Source: a virus. Taken from it: 25,951 bases of DNA. Location of the stretch: IMG/VR virus record IMGVR_UViG_3300037189_025743, positions 1 to 25,951 of that record. One strand, given 5' to 3'. Position 1 is the first letter of the stretch. Each line of letters starts with the position of its first letter. The notes beneath the pieces were generated by a model that was not told where the DNA came from, made no database searches, and saw nothing but the letters and a program-made list of their open reading frames with translations. This document shows, in pieces, positions 1,522 through 25,951 of the stretch. The translations under genes and the position numbers were made by a program.

Positions 1522-1836
1522 ATGAGCAGCGCAGGTGCCACAAATCTGAACCGGATCTTGCGAATCACCGCGCAACTTCTTTTTGAAAAGGGCGAGGACG
1601 TGCCGGCGGTGGCGAACCTGCTGCAGGGGTTCGTAAATCCAAGAATGGTGCGTAGCTGGTATGAGCGCTACTGCGAAGTCCACGGCCTGCCAAAATCAGC
1701 GAACAGCAGAAAAAACCATCGCCGAATGCCGATGCCGCCAATTGATTTCAATGCCATCAAGATACAGGAACTGAATGACATGCTTGATCCGCCATCAGGC
1801 AAGGGTTCTACGGAAAGCTTCAGACCAGAGCGGTAG
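1522..1836 (+). CDS. Small hypothetical protein, possible helix-turn-helix
   Basis: This 104-residue ORF reads rightward inside an otherwise leftward module, filling most of the 557-bp gap between the Rad52-type gene and the small gene after the helicase. The sequence is protein-like: residues about 15-58 (FEKGEDVPAVANLL, then NPRMVRSWYERYC) could form helices of a DNA-binding fold in which a second helix follows a turn at NP. The C-terminal half is basic and then Pro/Asp-rich. No reverse-strand frame across it looks better. The ATG at 1522 is the only good start, and no Shine-Dalgarno sequence is present. I do not recognise a family. If real, it would be transcribed against the replication operon. 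Confidence 0.5.
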   Translation: MSSAGATNLNRILRITAQLLFEKGEDVPAVANLLQGFVNPRMVRSWYERYCEVHGLPKSANSRKNHRRMPMPPIDFNAIKIQELNDMLDPPSGKGSTESFRPER

Positions 1837-5055: not shown

Positions 5056-5334
5056 ATGACGGCACTCCGCAAGTTCAAACAGTTTCACCAGGGCGACACT
5101 GTTTACGCAAGATTTTTTGACGACAGAAGTCTTGTGTTTGAGGGAATTGCTAAAACCAATTGGCCATTCCCGCATTACTTTTGTCGATTGAATGGAATTG
5201 TTTATTTGATTCCGAAAATTCATCTTTCGACCAAGAGCTTGGCACCGCTAGTGGGAGATGGAAACCATCGTCAGCTGGCGATTCCGGGGATTCTCCAGAG
5301 GGGCGAGCGCCATCAGGGATTGCTTATGGCTTGA
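5056..5334 (+). CDS. Hypothetical 92-residue protein, first gene of sigma operon
   Basis: The frame continues upstream, but the ATG at 5056 is chosen because it lies about 21 nt after the promoter start point; upstream codons would fall inside the promoter. The product begins MTALRKFKQFHQGDTVYARF and has a compact beta-rich look: GDTVYARFFDDRSLVFEGI, then WPFPHYFCRLNGIVYLIPKIH, then GDGNHRQLAIPGI (residues about 14-75). This suggests a small one-domain fold. I do not recognise a named family; it may be a picocyanobacterial hypothetical protein, but I cannot confirm this. Its stop codon lies inside an 11-bp tandem repeat that leads into the sigma gene promoter region. Confidence 0.65.
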   Translation: MTALRKFKQFHQGDTVYARFFDDRSLVFEGIAKTNWPFPHYFCRLNGIVYLIPKIHLSTKSLAPLVGDGNHRQLAIPGILQRGERHQGLLMA

Positions 5335-5361
5335 CCGGAGCTTGACCGGAGCTGGACCGGG
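5329..5361. repeat. Three tandem 11-bp repeats, GCTTGACCGGA
   Basis: Two perfect copies (5329-5339 and 5340-5350) and one diverged copy (5351-5361) overlap the stop of the preceding gene. Each perfect copy contains TTGACC, the same hexamer as the -35 of the replication promoter. They lie just upstream of the promoter for the sigma gene and could be activator or repressor sites. Confidence 0.7.
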
Positions 5362-5389
5362 CTGTACTGTTTGGACGGCTAGCGCAAGT

Positions 5390-5448: not shown

Positions 5449-6447
5449 GTGGCTGCAAGCAGTACAGCACCAATGAGTCTTGATGATTACCTGAAAGACA
5501 TCGCTCGCGTTCCCCTGTTAACAGGGGACGAAGAAATAGTGCTTGGGAATAGGGTGCAAGATATGATAAAAATCTTGAGGGAAAACGGTTTAAGTGAAAG
5601 CATCTCGCTAAATAATTTTGTTAGTTTCACGAAAGACTTGCGGCCAGAGCAAAGACGGGTGGTGGAAAAAGGGTTAAAAGCAAGGGATCGCATGATCTCA
5701 GCAAACATGAGACTCGTGGCTGCAGTCGCCAATAAGGCAAGATCGATGTGTGCTCACTTGTCAATCGAAGATTTGATGCAAGAAGGTGCCATTGGTCTTG
5801 CTAGAGCTGTTGAAAAGTTTGAACCACAGAAAGGGTATAAGTTTAGTACATACGCCTATTGGTGGATAAGACAGGGAATTACGAGAGCCTGGGAAAACCA
5901 GGAAAACACCATAAGAATTCCAGGTAATATTCAAAAAGCAGCCAGATTGATTGAGAAAACCAGGGTAAGTCTATCAAAAACACTTAACAGGGAGCCGACT
6001 ATTCCACAAATTGCCGAAGAGATGGGCGAAAAACCGGAACGAATTAAAAGAATTATTTTACAAAGGGTGAAAGTGTTTTCCTTTGATCGTGATTCTTGCG
6101 GGCTTAGTCATGATGTTTTTCCTGGGAGGGACACTTTCATGGATTTCCTTAAGTACAACTGCTTTGCCACCCTTGCTCAAGAGGAAGAATCTGAAAGTAT
6201 TAAAGAGATCCGTCGCATAGAAAATATTGCAATGACTATTGTCAATGCACTTCCAGAGCAAGATCAGCGGCTAATCAGACAAAGGTATGGAATAGGTGAA
6301 CGCCAGCTAACAATCAAAGAGATAGCGGAGAAAAGTGGGGTAAGCCAACGACGCATTAAAGATAAGTGCAACGAAGTTATGAGTGGAGTCGTGTTTACAG
6401 CCAAGGTATTTGCGCCTGAGGCTTTTGCCAAGGCTAAGCTTTCGTAG
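5449..6447 (+). CDS. RpoD-like sigma-70 family RNA polymerase sigma factor
   Basis: The product is 332 residues from GTG 5449, or 324 from ATG 5473; neither start has a Shine-Dalgarno sequence. Domains in order are region 1.2 (about 9-40, SLDDYLKDIARVPLLTGDEE), region 2 (about 77-158, with SIEDLMQEGAIGLARAVEKF and YKFSTYAYWWIRQGITRA), region 3 (about 165-230) and region 4 (about 262-315). The region 2.4 residues that read the -10 in E. coli sigma-70 are conserved (W138, W139, Q142, T145 here). The region 4.2 recognition helix is not: where E. coli has T-R-E-R-I-R-Q this protein has S-Q-R-R-I-K-D (299-305), so -35 recognition is probably altered. There is no region 1.1, as in cyanobacterial group 2 factors. 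Position suggests a middle- or late-gene switch; a captured host gene is the alternative origin. Confidence 0.93.
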   Translation: MAASSTAPMSLDDYLKDIARVPLLTGDEEIVLGNRVQDMIKILRENGLSESISLNNFVSFTKDLRPEQRRVVEKGLKARDRMISANMRLVAAVANKARSMCAHLSIEDLMQEGAIGLARAVEKFEPQKGYKFSTYAYWWIRQGITRAWENQENTIRIPGNIQKAARLIEKTRVSLSKTLNREPTIPQIAEEMGEKPERIKRIILQRVKVFSFDRDSCGLSHDVFPGRDTFMDFLKYNCFATLAQEEESESIKEIRRIENIAMTIVNALPEQDQRLIRQRYGIGERQLTIKEIAEKSGVSQRRIKDKCNEVMSGVVFTAKVFAPEAFAKAKLS

Positions 6448-6462
6448 AAGTAGTCATCAGAG

Positions 6463-8250
6463 ATGCCAGGCACGAGACTGATCGGGCAAAGCGCTAGCGG
6501 TCGCGACAATGCCGCAATGGTCACCGACAGCGGAGCCCTCAAGGTGGAGGTAGACGGCGGTGGCGCAGGCGGTAGCGACCTTGCTGCTACCAATGCCTTG
6601 CTCGGGCCTATTGACGAAGCGGCTCCAACTACTGACACCGCCAGCTCTGGTCAAAATGGTAGGCTTCAACGGATTGCTCAGCGACTAAGCTCGATTATTC
6701 TTAAGTTGCCGGCGTTTGGTACTGCCGGTGCGCCTAGTTCGGATGTGTTGACGGTGCAAGGGGCTTCCAGTGGAACCATCCTACCGGTTGCTCCAAGGGT
6801 TACCCTTGGTGTTGGTAACGCAGATGGCAGCACTCAGCGAGTGACACTAGCTAGTGACAGCCCGGCGGTAATATCGCTGGCTGCGATAGCCAGTAGTCAG
6901 CCAGACGTGCTAACTGCGCTAGCCGCACCATCCAATCATGGTTCAGTGGTTCGACATGCGCAGTGTCTTCAGTGGAAAGCGGATTTATCTAGTACTGGGC
7001 CTGGCTTATTGGCGCCAGAGCTAACACTGCGGTCACCGTCTTCGCTATTTGTGTCGCAAGCTAGTGGCAACCTGATTGTTAACCCGGGCACAGTCGCAAA
7101 TGCTGAAATGCTTTGCAGGTCTTCTATATCATTTAAGGGATCAATAGCTCTACGGTGGCGTTTACTGCCATCCCAAAGGATAGCAAACAGTAATTTAATG
7201 GTTTTGCTTGCCGATAGGATTGGTGAAAACCTTAGCTATGTATGTACTGCCACGAATGTAACCGTAACGCTTCCTGGCCACTCATATACGTCAGCCAACG
7301 TTGGCCAGTCTATGATGTTAGGCGCTATTACTGGCTCGGCTGGTATTCCTGGGCGATACGCTATTGCCAGCGTTAGCGCAAACACTGTTGTCCTTACCGT
7401 TGCTGGCTGGCCAGCTACTGGTAGCGGCACGCTTGACTTGTTTGGGCACAGCTACGTGCAACAACTTTACTCTGGTACTGCAAACGCTGCGCTTGACGCC
7501 CAGCGTATGGGTTGGAATACTGGTTCTATAGTAATAACTGCCACTACCTACGCCACTGCTCATGCTGCATCTATTCAGTTAGACGGCAGAACCGCTACAA
7601 CCTGTCGAACGGGAACAGGGGATGTGCTTGTGTTATCGGCATCAAGATCAGATATTGTACCAGATGAAAATAAGGATTTATTTTTGTATCTGTGGGCTCA
7701 CAATGGCTCTACAGCACCAGCTTCTGCAACAACGTGGACTATATCGTCTTTATCGCTGGAAGAGAATATTAACATCCCCTTATACCTAGCGGGTATGAAG
7801 CAGTCGGGGGTTGGATCCCCAGTAGCGATGACAGGTAGCGTTGCGGTGTCAGCTTTCTCAACCGGTGCCGCACTATCTAATGACGTTGGTGTTCAATACC
7901 GTGCTACCGTCACAGGTGGTGCCACGCCCGCCAAGGTAATATCTTCGGTGGCAAGCCCAAGCTCAATACTTAAAGTTGGAGCAACACGACCGCTTGGGTG
8001 GAACCTGGTAAATACTACGGCTTTGTGGGTATACGGCAAGCTTTACAACTCAACAACAGCAGGGGCTGGTGCTTTGGGAGTTACTATTCCAATTGCAATT
8101 CCACCCAACGGAATTAACTCCCATTTCAGCGAAGGTGGGCTGACAGGCTTTTCTACCGGCCTTACGCTTACCACCGTAACAGGCGCTGCTGACTCTAGCG
8201 CCACGGCAGCGCCTGATGGTGCTATAGTTGGTTCGGTGTTTTTTGCTTAA
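6463..8250 (+). CDS. Fibre-like virion structural protein
   Basis: This 595-residue protein is rich in Ser, Thr, Ala, Gly and Val with many short beta-type segments, typical of phage fibres and receptor-binding proteins. The N-terminal part contains GQNGRLQRIAQRLSSIILKL (64-83), a motif I know from phage structural proteins, and repeated phrases such as RVTLASDSPAVISLAAI. The C-terminal third ends in a Gly/Thr/Ala-rich segment (GGLTGFSTGLTLTTVTG, then GAIVGSVFFA) compatible with a receptor-binding tip. It starts 15 bp after the sigma gene, so both are probably on one transcript, although every other structural gene here is on the opposite strand. No chaperone or pectate-lyase motif was seen. 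Confidence 0.75.
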   Translation: MPGTRLIGQSASGRDNAAMVTDSGALKVEVDGGGAGGSDLAATNALLGPIDEAAPTTDTASSGQNGRLQRIAQRLSSIILKLPAFGTAGAPSSDVLTVQGASSGTILPVAPRVTLGVGNADGSTQRVTLASDSPAVISLAAIASSQPDVLTALAAPSNHGSVVRHAQCLQWKADLSSTGPGLLAPELTLRSPSSLFVSQASGNLIVNPGTVANAEMLCRSSISFKGSIALRWRLLPSQRIANSNLMVLLADRIGENLSYVCTATNVTVTLPGHSYTSANVGQSMMLGAITGSAGIPGRYAIASVSANTVVLTVAGWPATGSGTLDLFGHSYVQQLYSGTANAALDAQRMGWNTGSIVITATTYATAHAASIQLDGRTATTCRTGTGDVLVLSASRSDIVPDENKDLFLYLWAHNGSTAPASATTWTISSLSLEENINIPLYLAGMKQSGVGSPVAMTGSVAVSAFSTGAALSNDVGVQYRATVTGGATPAKVISSVASPSSILKVGATRPLGWNLVNTTALWVYGKLYNSTTAGAGALGVTIPIAIPPNGINSHFSEGGLTGFSTGLTLTTVTGAADSSATAAPDGAIVGSVFFA

Positions 8251-21155: not shown

Positions 21156-21622
21156 TACTGCATCGTCAGGTTGCCGCTGGTAGGTAACGCGCCAACCAGC
21201 CGCTGCGATAGCACCCGGCCACCAGGGGCACGCACAGCATCGAGCGGGCTCGCTAATTGCAGCGCTACAACTGGCTCCTTGCTGTCGTGCTGGACCCTAA
21301 GCGCTGCCCAGTATTCAAGTGTCAGCATCGGGCCTAGCGAATTGTCAACTCGATTGACGGTAACAGTCTTCACCTCAAGCAGCCATCTTTCTCTAGCGGC
21401 TTCGGTGAAGACATTTAGGCTGAGTGCTGATATTCCAGCGCCGATCGCCGCTTCTGACCGATCGCCGCCACGGGCGCTGCTGTTGGTCGCAACGCCAACT
21501 GGCAAATACGGATACTGTAGTCCGTTGTAAGCGACGACCTCGCCGATAAAGTAATTTTGCGCCAACCAACCCGTGTAGGTTCCGTCACGGCGCTTGAAGC
21601 GTAGAAAATTGCAGTTTTTCAT
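21155..21622 (-). CDS. Minor tail protein, lambda L-like
   Basis: This 155-residue protein follows the tape measure with a TGATG overlap at 21620-21624. Its middle (ARERWLLEVKTVTVNRVDNS) and the block EPVVALQLASPLDAVRAPGG followed by RVLSQRLVGALP (about 116-147) resemble the part of minor tail protein L in which a strand is followed by LASPLDA. The N-terminal FLRFKRRDGTYTGWLAQNYF is not recognised. Lambda L carries a Cys-rich iron-sulfur C-terminus; no such Cys cluster is visible here, so it matches only part of that family. Order and overlap support a role at the tail tip. Confidence 0.6.
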   Translation of the reverse strand: MKNCNFLRFKRRDGTYTGWLAQNYFIGEVVAYNGLQYPYLPVGVATNSSARGGDRSEAAIGAGISALSLNVFTEAARERWLLEVKTVTVNRVDNSLGPMLTLEYWAALRVQHDSKEPVVALQLASPLDAVRAPGGRVLSQRLVGALPTSGNLTMQ

Positions 21623-24600
21623 CAGCTAAGGCCTACCGCACGCCTAGCGCTTGGGCTGTTGCGATAACGCTTATGAGCAAGCTCGGCGCCGCGTTGCGCA
21701 GACTCCCTGCCGATTTGCTCAGCTTCTTCGCGAGTGACATAATCGACACTCCTAATTCTTACTGTCTCAAACTTCACGTCGATGGTTGCATTCATGCTGT
21801 CGCCTACTGTATCACCTGCAGACTTTAGATACGGCACGGCCAGGGCTGGCCCGCTGCGCCGATAGGGCACTTCCATTTCCGGGGTTGTAGCGGCTGCAGC
21901 TGAGCGCTGGTAGGGCACTTCCATTTCCGGGGTTGTAGCGGCTGCAGCTGAGCGCTGGTAGGGCACTTCCATGCCGCTGGCATCGACCCCCAGCCGGCCG
22001 TCAGGACCGCGCTTGAGGGGCATGATCGCTTCGGGGCCAGCCTCGCCCATCTCACCCATCTTCGTAACGCCGCCATCAGCGAATTGGAACAGGGTGGGAG
22101 AGCTGACGATCGAGTTGGTGAAGGTGCCGCCCTTGGCGAAGGCGGCGGTGCCATTAGCAAAGTAGGCGCCGTTTGCCGCAAAATTAGCACTAAGTGGCGT
22201 GACCGAGAAATCCCCCCAGTTAGATGGTGTCGCTTGAGCAGAGCCCGCCGAACCGCCACTACTCCCCGCAACCGCCCCAAGCGCCTTGAGGATTGTCTGT
22301 AAAACAATCATTGCCATCTGTTTTGCTATAATTTCAGCCGCCATACTGAGAAATGCCTCGCCAGTGCTTTTGAAGAAAGAGGCGAGAGCCTCTTGGGCTG
22401 ACATCGATCCGCTAATCAGGCCCTGGAAGGCTTGGGTAAATGCATTGCCGATGCCGTCAGCAACTGTTATCGCTATATTACCTACATTAGTGAGTTCGGT
22501 AAGCTCTTCCTTTAGCTTGCCAATTTTTTCATCAATTTTTTCGCTGGGGGGCATGACAGACTTTTTGGCCACGCCCCTAGCTTCCTCTACGACCGTCGCC
22601 GCCCGCCCTTCCACCTTGTCGGCCAACTGATTCCTGAGATCGAGAATTGCCTGAAGTTTAGCTCTTAACTCTTCTTGTTTTTTGGTATCCTCAGTTGTTG
22701 CAACAAGGCTTGCCAATGTGGCTTCGGTCAAAGCAAAAGTAGAGTCAACAAGGCTTGGGTTCAGCTTGAGTCTTTCCAGCTCGCTCCTAACAGCTTGATT
22801 GGTACTGATCGTAAGGCCTGTTAAAACGCTGTTCAGGTCTCTTCTGATCTCAAGGATGCGCAACTCGCCTTCAATTATTTCCGGGGCAACCCCTTCAAGC
22901 GCTAGTCGATTGCGCTCTTTACGTTTTTGAATTTCAAGCTCAAGTTCTCGATTTTGCTCTGTGTATTGCAGTATCGGAGCTAGGGTTTGCTGTTCAAGTG
23001 CAAAGCTGGCAGCCTCAGACTGAACAGCAAGCCTTTGCCTATCGGCAGCGGTGGCGCCTACGGTAGCTGCTTTAGTTTTTTCCACCAACTGAAGGTATTG
23101 CTGTAGTAGGTCATTGATACCAACAAGCCGTGGTGCGCCTGGAAGCTCAGGCATAGTCATGGTGCCCTTGAACACTGGAGCAGCGCCAACAGAAGTGGCC
23201 TGGCCGGCCCCAGCAGTGAGCCCCCTAACCATCCTTCCGTTCTTCCTGCTGAAATAGCCAACACCTGGCTGAAGGTAGGTGTCTATGTCTGGCTTGATGC
23301 CAGATACCACGCCTTGCACCTGCCCCCGTACCAGCATGTCGGCGCTTCGTCGTGCTGCTGCGGTTTCCCGGTTGCGTTGCAGCGCTCCGTTTGTTCCAGG
23401 TGAGTTAATATCAATACTGTTATGCGCCCCAAACGTGCGCCCAGAGGCATCGAACCTCCCTATCGTTTGTCCGCCAACAACTGACTGCCCCATTTTCACT
23501 GCGGCGGCAACATGGCTATAGGTGGCTTCCAGCTTGTTACCCAGATCGTCTAAGAACTGAACTACAACGTAATTGCCATTGTTTCCGGCTTTATTTATTT
23601 CGGTTACAACGCCGTTGTGATAACTACGCATTATATTATTCAGTGCAACTGGCATGTCAGCTCCATTTTGCCCTGATGCGTCAAGCCTGCCACTAATAGA
23701 ACCGGGTAGCCTTGATGCACCAGTGCCATTAGTTGCCTGAACTGCTTGCCTGATGGCCGAAGCCTGGATAGCAGCATCATCTAGTCCGTTTTGCACTACA
23801 ATTTGCTTCTTCTTTTCCAGGTCGATTTCCACTTCGTAGCGATACTTGGCCATCGCTAAGCGATGATCCTCGGCTTGCACGGCATAATCGACAATCTGCC
23901 TCTCGATTTGAAGGCGAGCGCGAGAAACATCACGCGAAAATTCATCGCGCTGAATCGCCATCTGGGAAACTCGGTTTTCAACTTGGAGTTTGTAACGGCT
24001 AGCCTCTTGGTCTATTTTCTGTAGTTCTAGCTTGAGTTGTTTTTCGGCTTGCTGGAGATCGGCTTCGCCTTCGGCTCTGATACGCAGATAGTCTCTGGCG
24101 GCGTCAACCACTCCTTGGGCGATTGGATCCAGACCTGTGGATGCTTTCTGAAGCTGAAGGTCAAAAGCGTCGATTGCATTTTGCTGACGCTTCCTTTCAT
24201 TTTCAATAAGCTTTTGCTCAAGCTCCTGTCGCTTGCCAAATACCTGATCTTCAACAGAGCGGCGAAATTCGGTCGCCTCGCGCTCCATATCAATTACACG
24301 CTTGCGAAGACCGTAAACAGTTTCTTCAGTGCTTAGGCGAAGATCGATTCCGCTGCGCTCAAATGCTATGCCTTGTTGGATGATAGAGCGAGCTTTTTCG
24401 GTTTTTTCAATTGTTTTATCAAGTGCCTGCAGCTCTTGTTCTGGAGTAGGTTTTCCGCCTTTGACTGTGGTTGGCTTGGCAAGAGGTCTGTAAAACTCAG
24501 CTAAGGCGGTTCGCTGCTTAGCGGCCTCTTCTTTGCTTATCCCGCCAAGCAAAGGTCCGAACGTAGTTCCAATCTGCTCCCTGGAATCTATTCCAATCAA

Positions 24601-25951
24601 TCCGATCTCAAATCGATCCTTAGCTTTACCGCTGAGCCCCCCCAGCACATCTTTTGCAAGCTGTCTCGAACTAGATGATTGGTTGCTAACCGAAACAATA
24701 CTGGTTACCCACTGCAGCAGTCCAGCCATTGGCCCAGCAAGCGCTGCCTGAAGCTGCAGGTTAAACTCAGCCCATGATTTACTCAATTTATAGGAAGCGT
24801 CGCCAAGATTCGTCAAATCATTGACGCCAGAGACGCCAATCTTCTTAATCATCTCAGCTTGTATTTCAGCTGTGGCCTTGGCGGTTTCACCTGTTTCAAT
24901 CAGCTTAGATATATAGTATTCTTGTTGACGGCTTGCAAACAGCCCGGCTGTTTTTAAACTCTCAAATCCTTCAATTGGATAGCCGAGCGCCTTACCCGTA
25001 TCCTGTGCGGCCTGCGCCAAGGTGTCAAACACTGTGCCAAGGGCTGTGCCGGCCAGCGACAAGCCAAAGCCAAGGCCACCGCCAAGGAAGCCGCCACCGG
25101 CGCCACCAGCAAGGCCGCCAAGGGAAGCCCCAAGGCCCTGGCCAAACAGCAGTGGGAATGCACCACCGATCAGGCCCTCGCTGATCGCTCTGCCACCCCT
25201 AGGGCCAAACCGGCGAGTCAGGAAATCCGCATCAGGTGCGCGGCGCTCGATCTGGCGATCAAGGTTGGCCGCCGTTTCACGTAATTGATTGTCAAGCCGA
25301 TCGAATCCTTGGATAGTTGGATCAAGGACGGAACGGAATTCTTTTAAGACAGCGCTTAGTGCTTCCAGTTCAGCGGTTGAGGCCTTCGCGGGCTTGGCCA
25401 GTTCCGCGAGGCCCAGTAGCGCCTCAGGCCCCTGCTGGGCTGCTGCAGCTGCTCGGGAAGCCAGGTCGCTTCGCCCACCTGCCATTGACTTGCCTGTATT
25501 AAACTCGCGAGCAATCTTGTCGATCGCTTCGGCGGGAGATGCGCCGCCAAAAAAGTCTTGACGTGCGCGGCGAGCTTCTTGAAGTTTTTGCAGTGCCGCC
25601 TGAAGGCCAACACCAGGAAGCGCACCAGCTTTTAAGTCAATTGCCATTGCACTGGCAAAATTCCTGGCAGCAACAACTTTGGACGCTAAGGTGGCAAGTT
25701 CTTGCTGACTAGCTTTATTGCGAAGTGACTGAATATCGCTAATAGCCTGCTCGATTTCCAGTTTTTGACTAGAAACAGTTACACCCTTGCCTTCAAGGGT
25801 AATAAGCTGACTTAGGCCGCCTCTCGCCAAATTGAGCAGCCTCTCTCTCCTGGCTTCCAACTGCTGCGCAGTCGTTTCGGTTGCTTTATTGCCACTGCTA
25901 TTACCGCCGTAGCTATCATTCAGTATTGCTTCATTTTTGCGATAGCGACCA
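21622..25951 (-). CDS. Tail tape measure protein with degenerate M23-like domain (partial, runs off right edge)
   Basis: The frame stays open to the window edge, so the start is outside; at least 1,442 residues are visible. N-terminal coiled-coil and Ala/Gly-rich parts are followed by a hydrophobic Gly-rich stretch (encoded near 25040-25190), long coiled coils (about 23790-24400), an M23-like domain (23390-23690), more helices, a hydrophobic segment near 22270-22440, and a C-terminal tail with 16-residue repeats. Tape measure proteins set tail length and can breach the wall. The M23-like domain keeps the Asp of HxxxD and the Tyr-x-His, but has Gln for the first zinc His and Ser for the last (GAHNS), so it is probably inactive. 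At about 1.5 angstrom per residue the tail would be 215 nm or longer. Confidence 0.9.
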   Translation of the reverse strand, partial: GRYRKNEAILNDSYGGNSSGNKATETTAQQLEARRERLLNLARGGLSQLITLEGKGVTVSSQKLEIEQAISDIQSLRNKASQQELATLASKVVAARNFASAMAIDLKAGALPGVGLQAALQKLQEARRARQDFFGGASPAEAIDKIAREFNTGKSMAGGRSDLASRAAAAAQQGPEALLGLAELAKPAKASTAELEALSAVLKEFRSVLDPTIQGFDRLDNQLRETAANLDRQIERRAPDADFLTRRFGPRGGRAISEGLIGGAFPLLFGQGLGASLGGLAGGAGGGFLGGGLGFGLSLAGTALGTVFDTLAQAAQDTGKALGYPIEGFESLKTAGLFASRQQEYYISKLIETGETAKATAEIQAEMIKKIGVSGVNDLTNLGDASYKLSKSWAEFNLQLQAALAGPMAGLLQWVTSIVSVSNQSSSSRQLAKDVLGGLSGKAKDRFEIGLIGIDSREQIGTTFGPLLGGISKEEAAKQRTALAEFYRPLAKPTTVKGGKPTPEQELQALDKTIEKTEKARSIIQQGIAFERSGIDLRLSTEETVYGLRKRVIDMEREATEFRRSVEDQVFGKRQELEQKLIENERKRQQNAIDAFDLQLQKASTGLDPIAQGVVDAARDYLRIRAEGEADLQQAEKQLKLELQKIDQEASRYKLQVENRVSQMAIQRDEFSRDVSRARLQIERQIVDYAVQAEDHRLAMAKYRYEVEIDLEKKKQIVVQNGLDDAAIQASAIRQAVQATNGTGASRLPGSISGRLDASGQNGADMPVALNNIMRSYHNGVVTEINKAGNNGNYVVVQFLDDLGNKLEATYSHVAAAVKMGQSVVGGQTIGRFDASGRTFGAHNSIDINSPGTNGALQRNRETAAARRSADMLVRGQVQGVVSGIKPDIDTYLQPGVGYFSRKNGRMVRGLTAGAGQATSVGAAPVFKGTMTMPELPGAPRLVGINDLLQQYLQLVEKTKAATVGATAADRQRLAVQSEAASFALEQQTLAPILQYTEQNRELELEIQKRKERNRLALEGVAPEIIEGELRILEIRRDLNSVLTGLTISTNQAVRSELERLKLNPSLVDSTFALTEATLASLVATTEDTKKQEELRAKLQAILDLRNQLADKVEGRAATVVEEARGVAKKSVMPPSEKIDEKIGKLKEELTELTNVGNIAITVADGIGNAFTQAFQGLISGSMSAQEALASFFKSTGEAFLSMAAEIIAKQMAMIVLQTILKALGAVAGSSGGSAGSAQATPSNWGDFSVTPLSANFAANGAYFANGTAAFAKGGTFTNSIVSSPTLFQFADGGVTKMGEMGEAGPEAIMPLKRGPDGRLGVDASGMEVPYQRSAAAATTPEMEVPYQRSAAAATTPEMEVPYRRSGPALAVPYLKSAGDTVGDSMNATIDVKFETVRIRSVDYVTREEAEQIGRESAQRGAELAHKRYRNSPSARRAVGLS
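21863..21972. repeat. 48-bp tandem repeat in tape measure gene, 2.3 copies
   Basis: Two identical 48-bp copies (21863-21910 and 21911-21958) are followed by a 14-bp partial copy to 21972. Each encodes a 16-residue unit containing MEVPYQRS and AAAATTPE, and a diverged unit (MEVPYRRS) follows in the protein. Identity at the DNA level points to a recent slippage duplication. Confidence 0.95.

Follow-up and report, generated by a model that had tools for sequence, protein, structure and literature searches.

A phage-borne RpoD-like sigma factor with altered -35 and extended -10 recognition residues, and a candidate class of virion-gene promoters without a -35 box

Of the 153 cyanophage genomes considered in a review, 65 carry putative sigma factors (PMC10452541). 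In the cyanosiphovirus P-SS2 a group 2 factor (ORF113) and a group 3 factor (ORF003) are proposed to steer the host polymerase; the available text of that paper assumes canonical sigma-70 promoters for the group 2 factor and does not report altered recognition (PMC2784084). The cyanophages S-CBS1, S-CBS3, KBS-S-2A and S-LBS1 each carry an RpoD-like sigma gene (rpsD4 / RpoD, group 2-type) of the same kind as the one described here, which in S-CBS1, S-CBS3 and S-LBS1 lies near lysozyme or structural genes. Though such genes have been listed for more than ten years, no target promoter of a cyanophage sigma factor was identified in the literature found. Here we present an RpoD-like sigma factor gene from a phage, together with the promoter that precedes it and those that it may serve.

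The window, that is the whole stretch of DNA analysed, is a viral record of 25,951 bp. The record IMGVR_UViG_3300032249_001164 (G001, equivalent to G1; 79,539 bp) represents the same phage with 99.996% identity and contains the window at 2550-28500. The first 124 bases of G001 recur at its end as a direct repeat, which indicates a complete genome of about 79.4 kb. The large terminase of this phage most resembles those of the cyanosiphoviruses KBS-S-2A, S-H1 and MED4-184 (35-38%). The bacterial sigma factors nearest to that of the window are 33-39% identical and originate, with one exception, from cyanobacteria-named records, mostly Prochlorococcus, Synechococcus and Cyanobium; a picocyanobacterium is accordingly the probable host. 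Other features of the genome include a 104-aa ORF at 1522-1836 (+) of the window, located amid minus-strand replication genes, 60-74% conserved in six relatives and without a family match, and a tape-measure protein (21622-25950, -) whose residues 759-849 match endolysin/metallo-endopeptidase families. Deaminases of dCTP are normally about 190 aa long; G001 encodes at 48911-50557 (-) a 548-aa protein with dCTP deaminase matches in two stretches and weak matches to other families between them, possibly an intein.

The sigma ORF (5449-6447, +) is intact and comprises 332 aa. Translation probably starts at ATG 5473 (324 aa), with GTG 5449 as the longer alternative, as two relatives, G2 and G3, lack any start codon 5' of the corresponding methionine. 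All four sigma-70 Pfam profiles score above cut-off (region 2, E=2e-17; region 1.2, 2e-9; region 3, 3e-8; region 4, 3e-7) and phrog_351, RNA polymerase sigma factor, matches at 4e-56. The gene thus encodes a full RpoD-like sigma-70 factor with regions 1.2 to 4 all present, as originally predicted. The AlphaFold model has a mean pLDDT of 85 with a confident helix-turn-helix in region 4, and its Foldseek matches are mainly primary sigma factors in holoenzymes. A frameshifted or decaying gene was considered and ruled out, the ORF being intact here and in the relatives and dN being lower than dS where dS could be estimated. The coordinates of the gene, its surroundings and the putative target genes are summarized in Table 1. 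Small ORFs (100-104 aa) occupy the place of the upstream small gene in G2 and G8. At the place of the downstream gene G2 carries a 1257-aa tail fibre together with a lectin-domain protein, which suggests that the sigma gene borders a variable receptor-binding cassette.

Table 1. Location of the sigma gene, its recognition elements, neighbouring genes and putative target genes (window coordinates unless G001 is given).
Feature	Position	Strand	Remark
Small gene, no assigned function	5056..5334	+	directly 5' of sigma promoter
-35 box TTGACC, sigma gene promoter (host SigA-type)	5342..5347	+	invariant in G1, G2, G3, G8, G018, G017
-10 box TACTGT, sigma gene promoter	5365..5370	+	TAnnnT in relatives
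Conserved untranslated leader block CGGCTAGCGCAAG...GGCAGCTTAAA	5376..5416	+	between sigma promoter and start codon
Phage RpoD-like sigma factor gene	5473..6447	+	probable ATG start; conserved 'MSLDDYL' start in relatives
-10 recognition residues, codons 138-145	5860..5883	+	W138 W139 Q142 T145 = E. coli W433 W434 Q437 T440
Extended -10 recognition, codons 160-163	5926..5937	+	H455->N160, E458->K163; charge reversal clade-wide
Region 3.2 / sigma-finger linker	6073..6189	+	extended by about 11 residues compared with relatives; low model confidence
-35 recognition helix SQRRIKD, codons 299-305	6343..6363	+	E. coli TRERIRQ 583-589; helix confidently predicted
Co-oriented 595-aa gene downstream of sigma	6463..8250	+	without homologue in relatives
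Major capsid gene (MCP)	G001 35619-36608	-	preceded by PMCP
Probable major tail gene	G001 32368-33138	-	phrog_1407 major tail protein in 4/8 orthologues, best E=1.6e-4

Full RpoD-like factors had been assumed to be rare in phages, which is wrong for cyanophages: at the search sensitivity used, RpoD-like sigma factors occur in 244 phage records, and at least 583 viral stretches match the sigma of the window. The kind of gene is already known, as its presence in the four cyanophages named above and in many viral records demonstrates.

A maximum-likelihood tree was calculated from 88 factors with region 4.2 left out. The window sigma does not cluster with any single host group 2 factor, which would have been part of the outcome speaking against the original prediction. 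It falls into a virus-only clade comprising nine rows (SH-aLRT 99), which is also recovered when the columns around E458 are omitted. This clade is nested in a virus-only group of 32 rows (SH-aLRT 88) that includes the factors of S-CBS1, S-CBS3 and KBS-S-2A, only 29-31% identical to that of the window; the position of the S-LBS1 factor, on a very long branch, is uncertain. A long branch also leads to the window sigma (0.86 versus 0.2 for its nearest relatives). Its best NCBIfam match is TIGR02997, with 219.7 bits far under the curated cut-off of 384.5. On balance, we regard it as a phage-lineage factor anciently derived from cyanobacterial group 2 (RpoD-like) factors. The relative G017 (IMGVR_UViG_3300007171_000148) carries on its minus strand a tandem pair of different sigma genes (38895-39698 and 39919-40827), one of the window's clade and one of another lineage, the latter keeping R584, E585, Y430, W434 and Q437. 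This second sigma (G017b) was given a row in the residue comparison and excluded from the clade counts.

In the alignment with E. coli RpoD the predicted correspondences of the -10 residues and the replacement of the -35 recognition helix (T583-Q589) are exact (Table 1). The residues for -10 recognition and melting, Y430, W433, W434, Q437 and R441, are present in the window sigma; within the clade Y430, W434, Q437 and R441 are kept and W433 is found in 11/13, while T440 is weak evidence since V, A, N or H also occur at this position. In the -35 helix R584 is replaced by Q, E585 by R and Q589 by D, so that all three contacts are lost. E585 is lost in every clade member (mostly Q, otherwise H or R) and R584 in nearly all, with Q, R, K, P, V, D or E at position 584 in different phages; position 589 holds Q, E, D or R, and R/K588 is kept in 12/13 factors examined. 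Changes of R584 and the substitution E585Q relax the specificity at -33/-31 in E. coli (PMC2613000). The view that the -10 residues are conserved and the -35 residues altered holds for both of these elements and had missed a third: the extended -10 residues H455 and E458, which in E. coli read the -14 G:C pair (PMC4593229), are absent from the window sigma, with N and K instead. Position 458 is K or R in 12/12 clade members versus E or D in 106/108 host factors, and the basic residue arose once on a tree from which that column had been omitted.

Identity within the clade is 34-59% in region 4.2 versus 63-94% in region 2, and three pairs of host factors are 62-97% identical at 4.2; judged from these values, region 4.2 is fast-evolving in the phage clade. 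In region 4 dN exceeds that of region 2 two- to fourfold and still stays below dS (saturated) wherever dS was estimable, which argues against simple decay of region 4.

The promoter of the sigma gene is of the canonical form TTGACC-N17-TAnnnT, and neither its -35 box nor its spacer of 17 bp varies among six phages; in G015 and G029 the upstream context of the gene differs. The leader block that follows is conserved in the window, G2 and G3, and partly in G8 and L149. A different arrangement precedes the major capsid gene. Here the predicted promoter, PMCP, follows a terminator and a T tract; TTGGCTAYTAT is separated by 9-11 bases from GAGGC(A/G)GTGCCTC, which would form a stem of 5 bp where the capsid mRNA is predicted to begin. 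When all IMG/VR contigs were scanned for the pattern GCTAYYAT-N8-13-GAGGCRGTGCCTC, 31 stretches were found, all 31 directly upstream of the same capsid gene. No hexamer at the -35 position of the 16 distinct PMCP sequences matches TTGACA in more than 4/6 positions, and the information content is at most 0.6 bits at -36 to -31 versus 1.67 at the majority of positions between -16 and -7. The best TTGACA match, on average 3.25/6, slightly exceeds that of shuffled sequences (2.72, P ~0.01); as the -35 position falls inside the terminator stem, its composition is constrained for another reason. G-14 is conserved, and -15 is mostly G, not T.

Some 3.4-3.5 kb further along, eight genomes have a second promoter-like block, GCTAnnnT-N8-9-(C/T)GGGC(AGT/ACC)GCCC(G/A), in front of the probable major tail gene. 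Its -15 position is mostly C or G, and its -10 matches are poor (TAACCT, TACCCT). The outer pair of its stem occurs as T-A, T-G and C-G, a pattern that speaks for a hairpin in the RNA. An AlphaFold prediction for the putative tail protein was poor (pLDDT 57) and was set aside. The stem-loops that follow the two promoters at G001 36720 (-) and 33193 (-) would give the capsid and tail mRNAs a common core, GGC(A/G)GTGCC, and the capsid leader contains a second stem-loop (e.g. ACAGC-AGT-GCTGT); these structures may stabilise the 5' end of the mRNA or bind a regulator.

Single-motif k-mer and PWM searches for a late promoter across the genome were discarded, as TTGGCTA occurs 18 times in G1, mostly within genes, with only one strong PWM hit in this genome; likewise, the tail-gene pattern was too unspecific for counting when scanned over all viral contigs. 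The sequences 5' of the capsid genes of S-CBS3 and KBS-S-2A were unsuitable as a control. A two-block EM search with a sigma-70 seed recovered the canonical promoter only (67.3 in G1 versus 51.5 +/- 5.6 resampled). Canonical promoters are also enriched 5' of other G001 genes, and the genome-wide excess of sigma-70-like sites is modest (41 versus 24-36 random). No broad late regulon emerged in the promoter searches, with only two promoter copies per genome.

Five genomes, G001, G015, G017, G018 and G029, contain both the sigma gene and the capsid family, and the sigma gene is present in five of the seven contigs of about 40 kb or more that carry PMCP. All seven contigs with the adjacent replication helicase (G1, G2, G3, G8, G015, G018, G029) also carry the sigma gene. 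PMCP without a sigma match is found in G016, L301 and shorter contigs, all of them fragments, G016 being without the helicase region. The link between sigma factor and promoter is a correlation.

We lean slightly towards a scheme in which the phage sigma is made under host SigA and then sends the host polymerase to -35-independent promoters of virion genes. It builds on features apparent in the sequences themselves, namely the sigma family, its substitutions and two promoter classes with their conservation. Host SigA would transcribe the sigma gene from the canonical promoter, and the product would attach to the host core polymerase via its conserved regions 1.2-2. The resulting holoenzyme would open the DNA at -10 elements (T-12, A-11, T-7) without the need for TTGACA, since contacts of the R584/E585/Q589 type are lost and K or R replaces E458 in the extended -10 helix. 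Its main targets, presumably used late and by the phage rather than the host sigma, would be PMCP and its counterpart in front of the probable major tail gene, both without a -35 box and both predicted to yield an mRNA that begins with a small stable hairpin.

The original prediction held that the factor reads a different, specific -35, in which case phage promoters would share a novel -35 element. The recognition helix has kept its helical structure and evolves under purifying selection (dN < dS), and the conservation of R/K588 also agrees with this reading. The search for promoters in this lineage did reveal a class with a -10 and without TTGACA, but neither PMCP nor the tail-gene promoter showed an alternative -35 common to the phages, and the low information at -36 to -31 tracks the terminator stem. 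Moreover, the recognition helix varies between phages while the capsid promoter is constant, which argues for a minor role of the -35 bases at this site. Relaxed or absent -35 reading appears better supported than a new fixed -35, which we consider quite improbable. It is very improbable that the factor is mainly a takeover tool, a -35-blind sigma that occupies the core polymerase and depresses host SigA transcription with little positive choice of promoters. Conserved core-binding and -10 regions beside degenerate DNA-reading regions would suit such a role, and heterologous expression of the S-CBS2/S-CBS3 sigma factors alters host metabolism (PMC10452541). However, a distinct conserved class of virion-gene promoters exists, and global inhibition of SigA would also hit the phage, because its own genes use host-type promoters.

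PMCP and the second copy could also be host-type extended -10 promoters for SigA or a group 2 factor of the host, the phage sigma being redundant there and serving ordinary promoters. The conserved G-14 makes use of PMCP by host SigA conceivable and counts against the scheme that we favour, an extended -10 being able to replace a -35 (PMC4593229). Further points against that scheme are the small number of promoter copies, two per genome and no broad late regulon, the slight excess of TTGACA matches at PMCP, where the -35 position falls in a terminator stem, and the divergence of the window sigma from its close relatives in regions 4.2 (Q589D) and 3.2, with an unchanged PMCP. Ma-LMM01 uses host SigA-like promoters for all expression classes (PMC5780444), and canonical promoters are common in G001. 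Nevertheless, the -15 position of PMCP is mostly G and not T, the tail copy with mostly C or G at -15 and TAACCT or TACCCT as -10 would hardly be usable by SigA alone, and the sigma gene of the same phages keeps its TTGACC-17 promoter, which indicates that two promoter classes are maintained. We therefore rate this explanation as rather unlikely.

A clade with defined recognition changes and a conserved candidate target promoter makes the role of phage RpoD-like sigma factors directly testable, and it offers natural variants of E458, R584 and E585, residues known from E. coli genetics. Among the described factors, those of S-CBS1, S-CBS3 and KBS-S-2A belong to the same virus-only part of the tree and, unlike the window sigma, keep R584, E585, R588, Q589 and E458; cyanobacterial group 2 host factors (TIGR02997) keep the recognition residues as well. 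T4 gp55 is a reduced sigma factor that works with the clamp gp45 and with gp33. If the favoured scheme is right, the likeness to gp55 would lie in the expression of virion genes from -10-type promoters without a -35. Only tentatively can it be proposed that a group 2 sigma was rewired to -35 independence, with the bases just 5' of the -10 read anew (E458 to K/R) and with dedicated, hairpin-capped virion promoters (GCTAnnnT-N8-11-stem-loop) unused by host SigA, as a full-length route to a -10-only late logic like that of T4 gp55. The window sigma is not a reduced factor without a normal region 4; it differs from gp55 in its promoter sequence and in a region 4 that is present and confidently folded.
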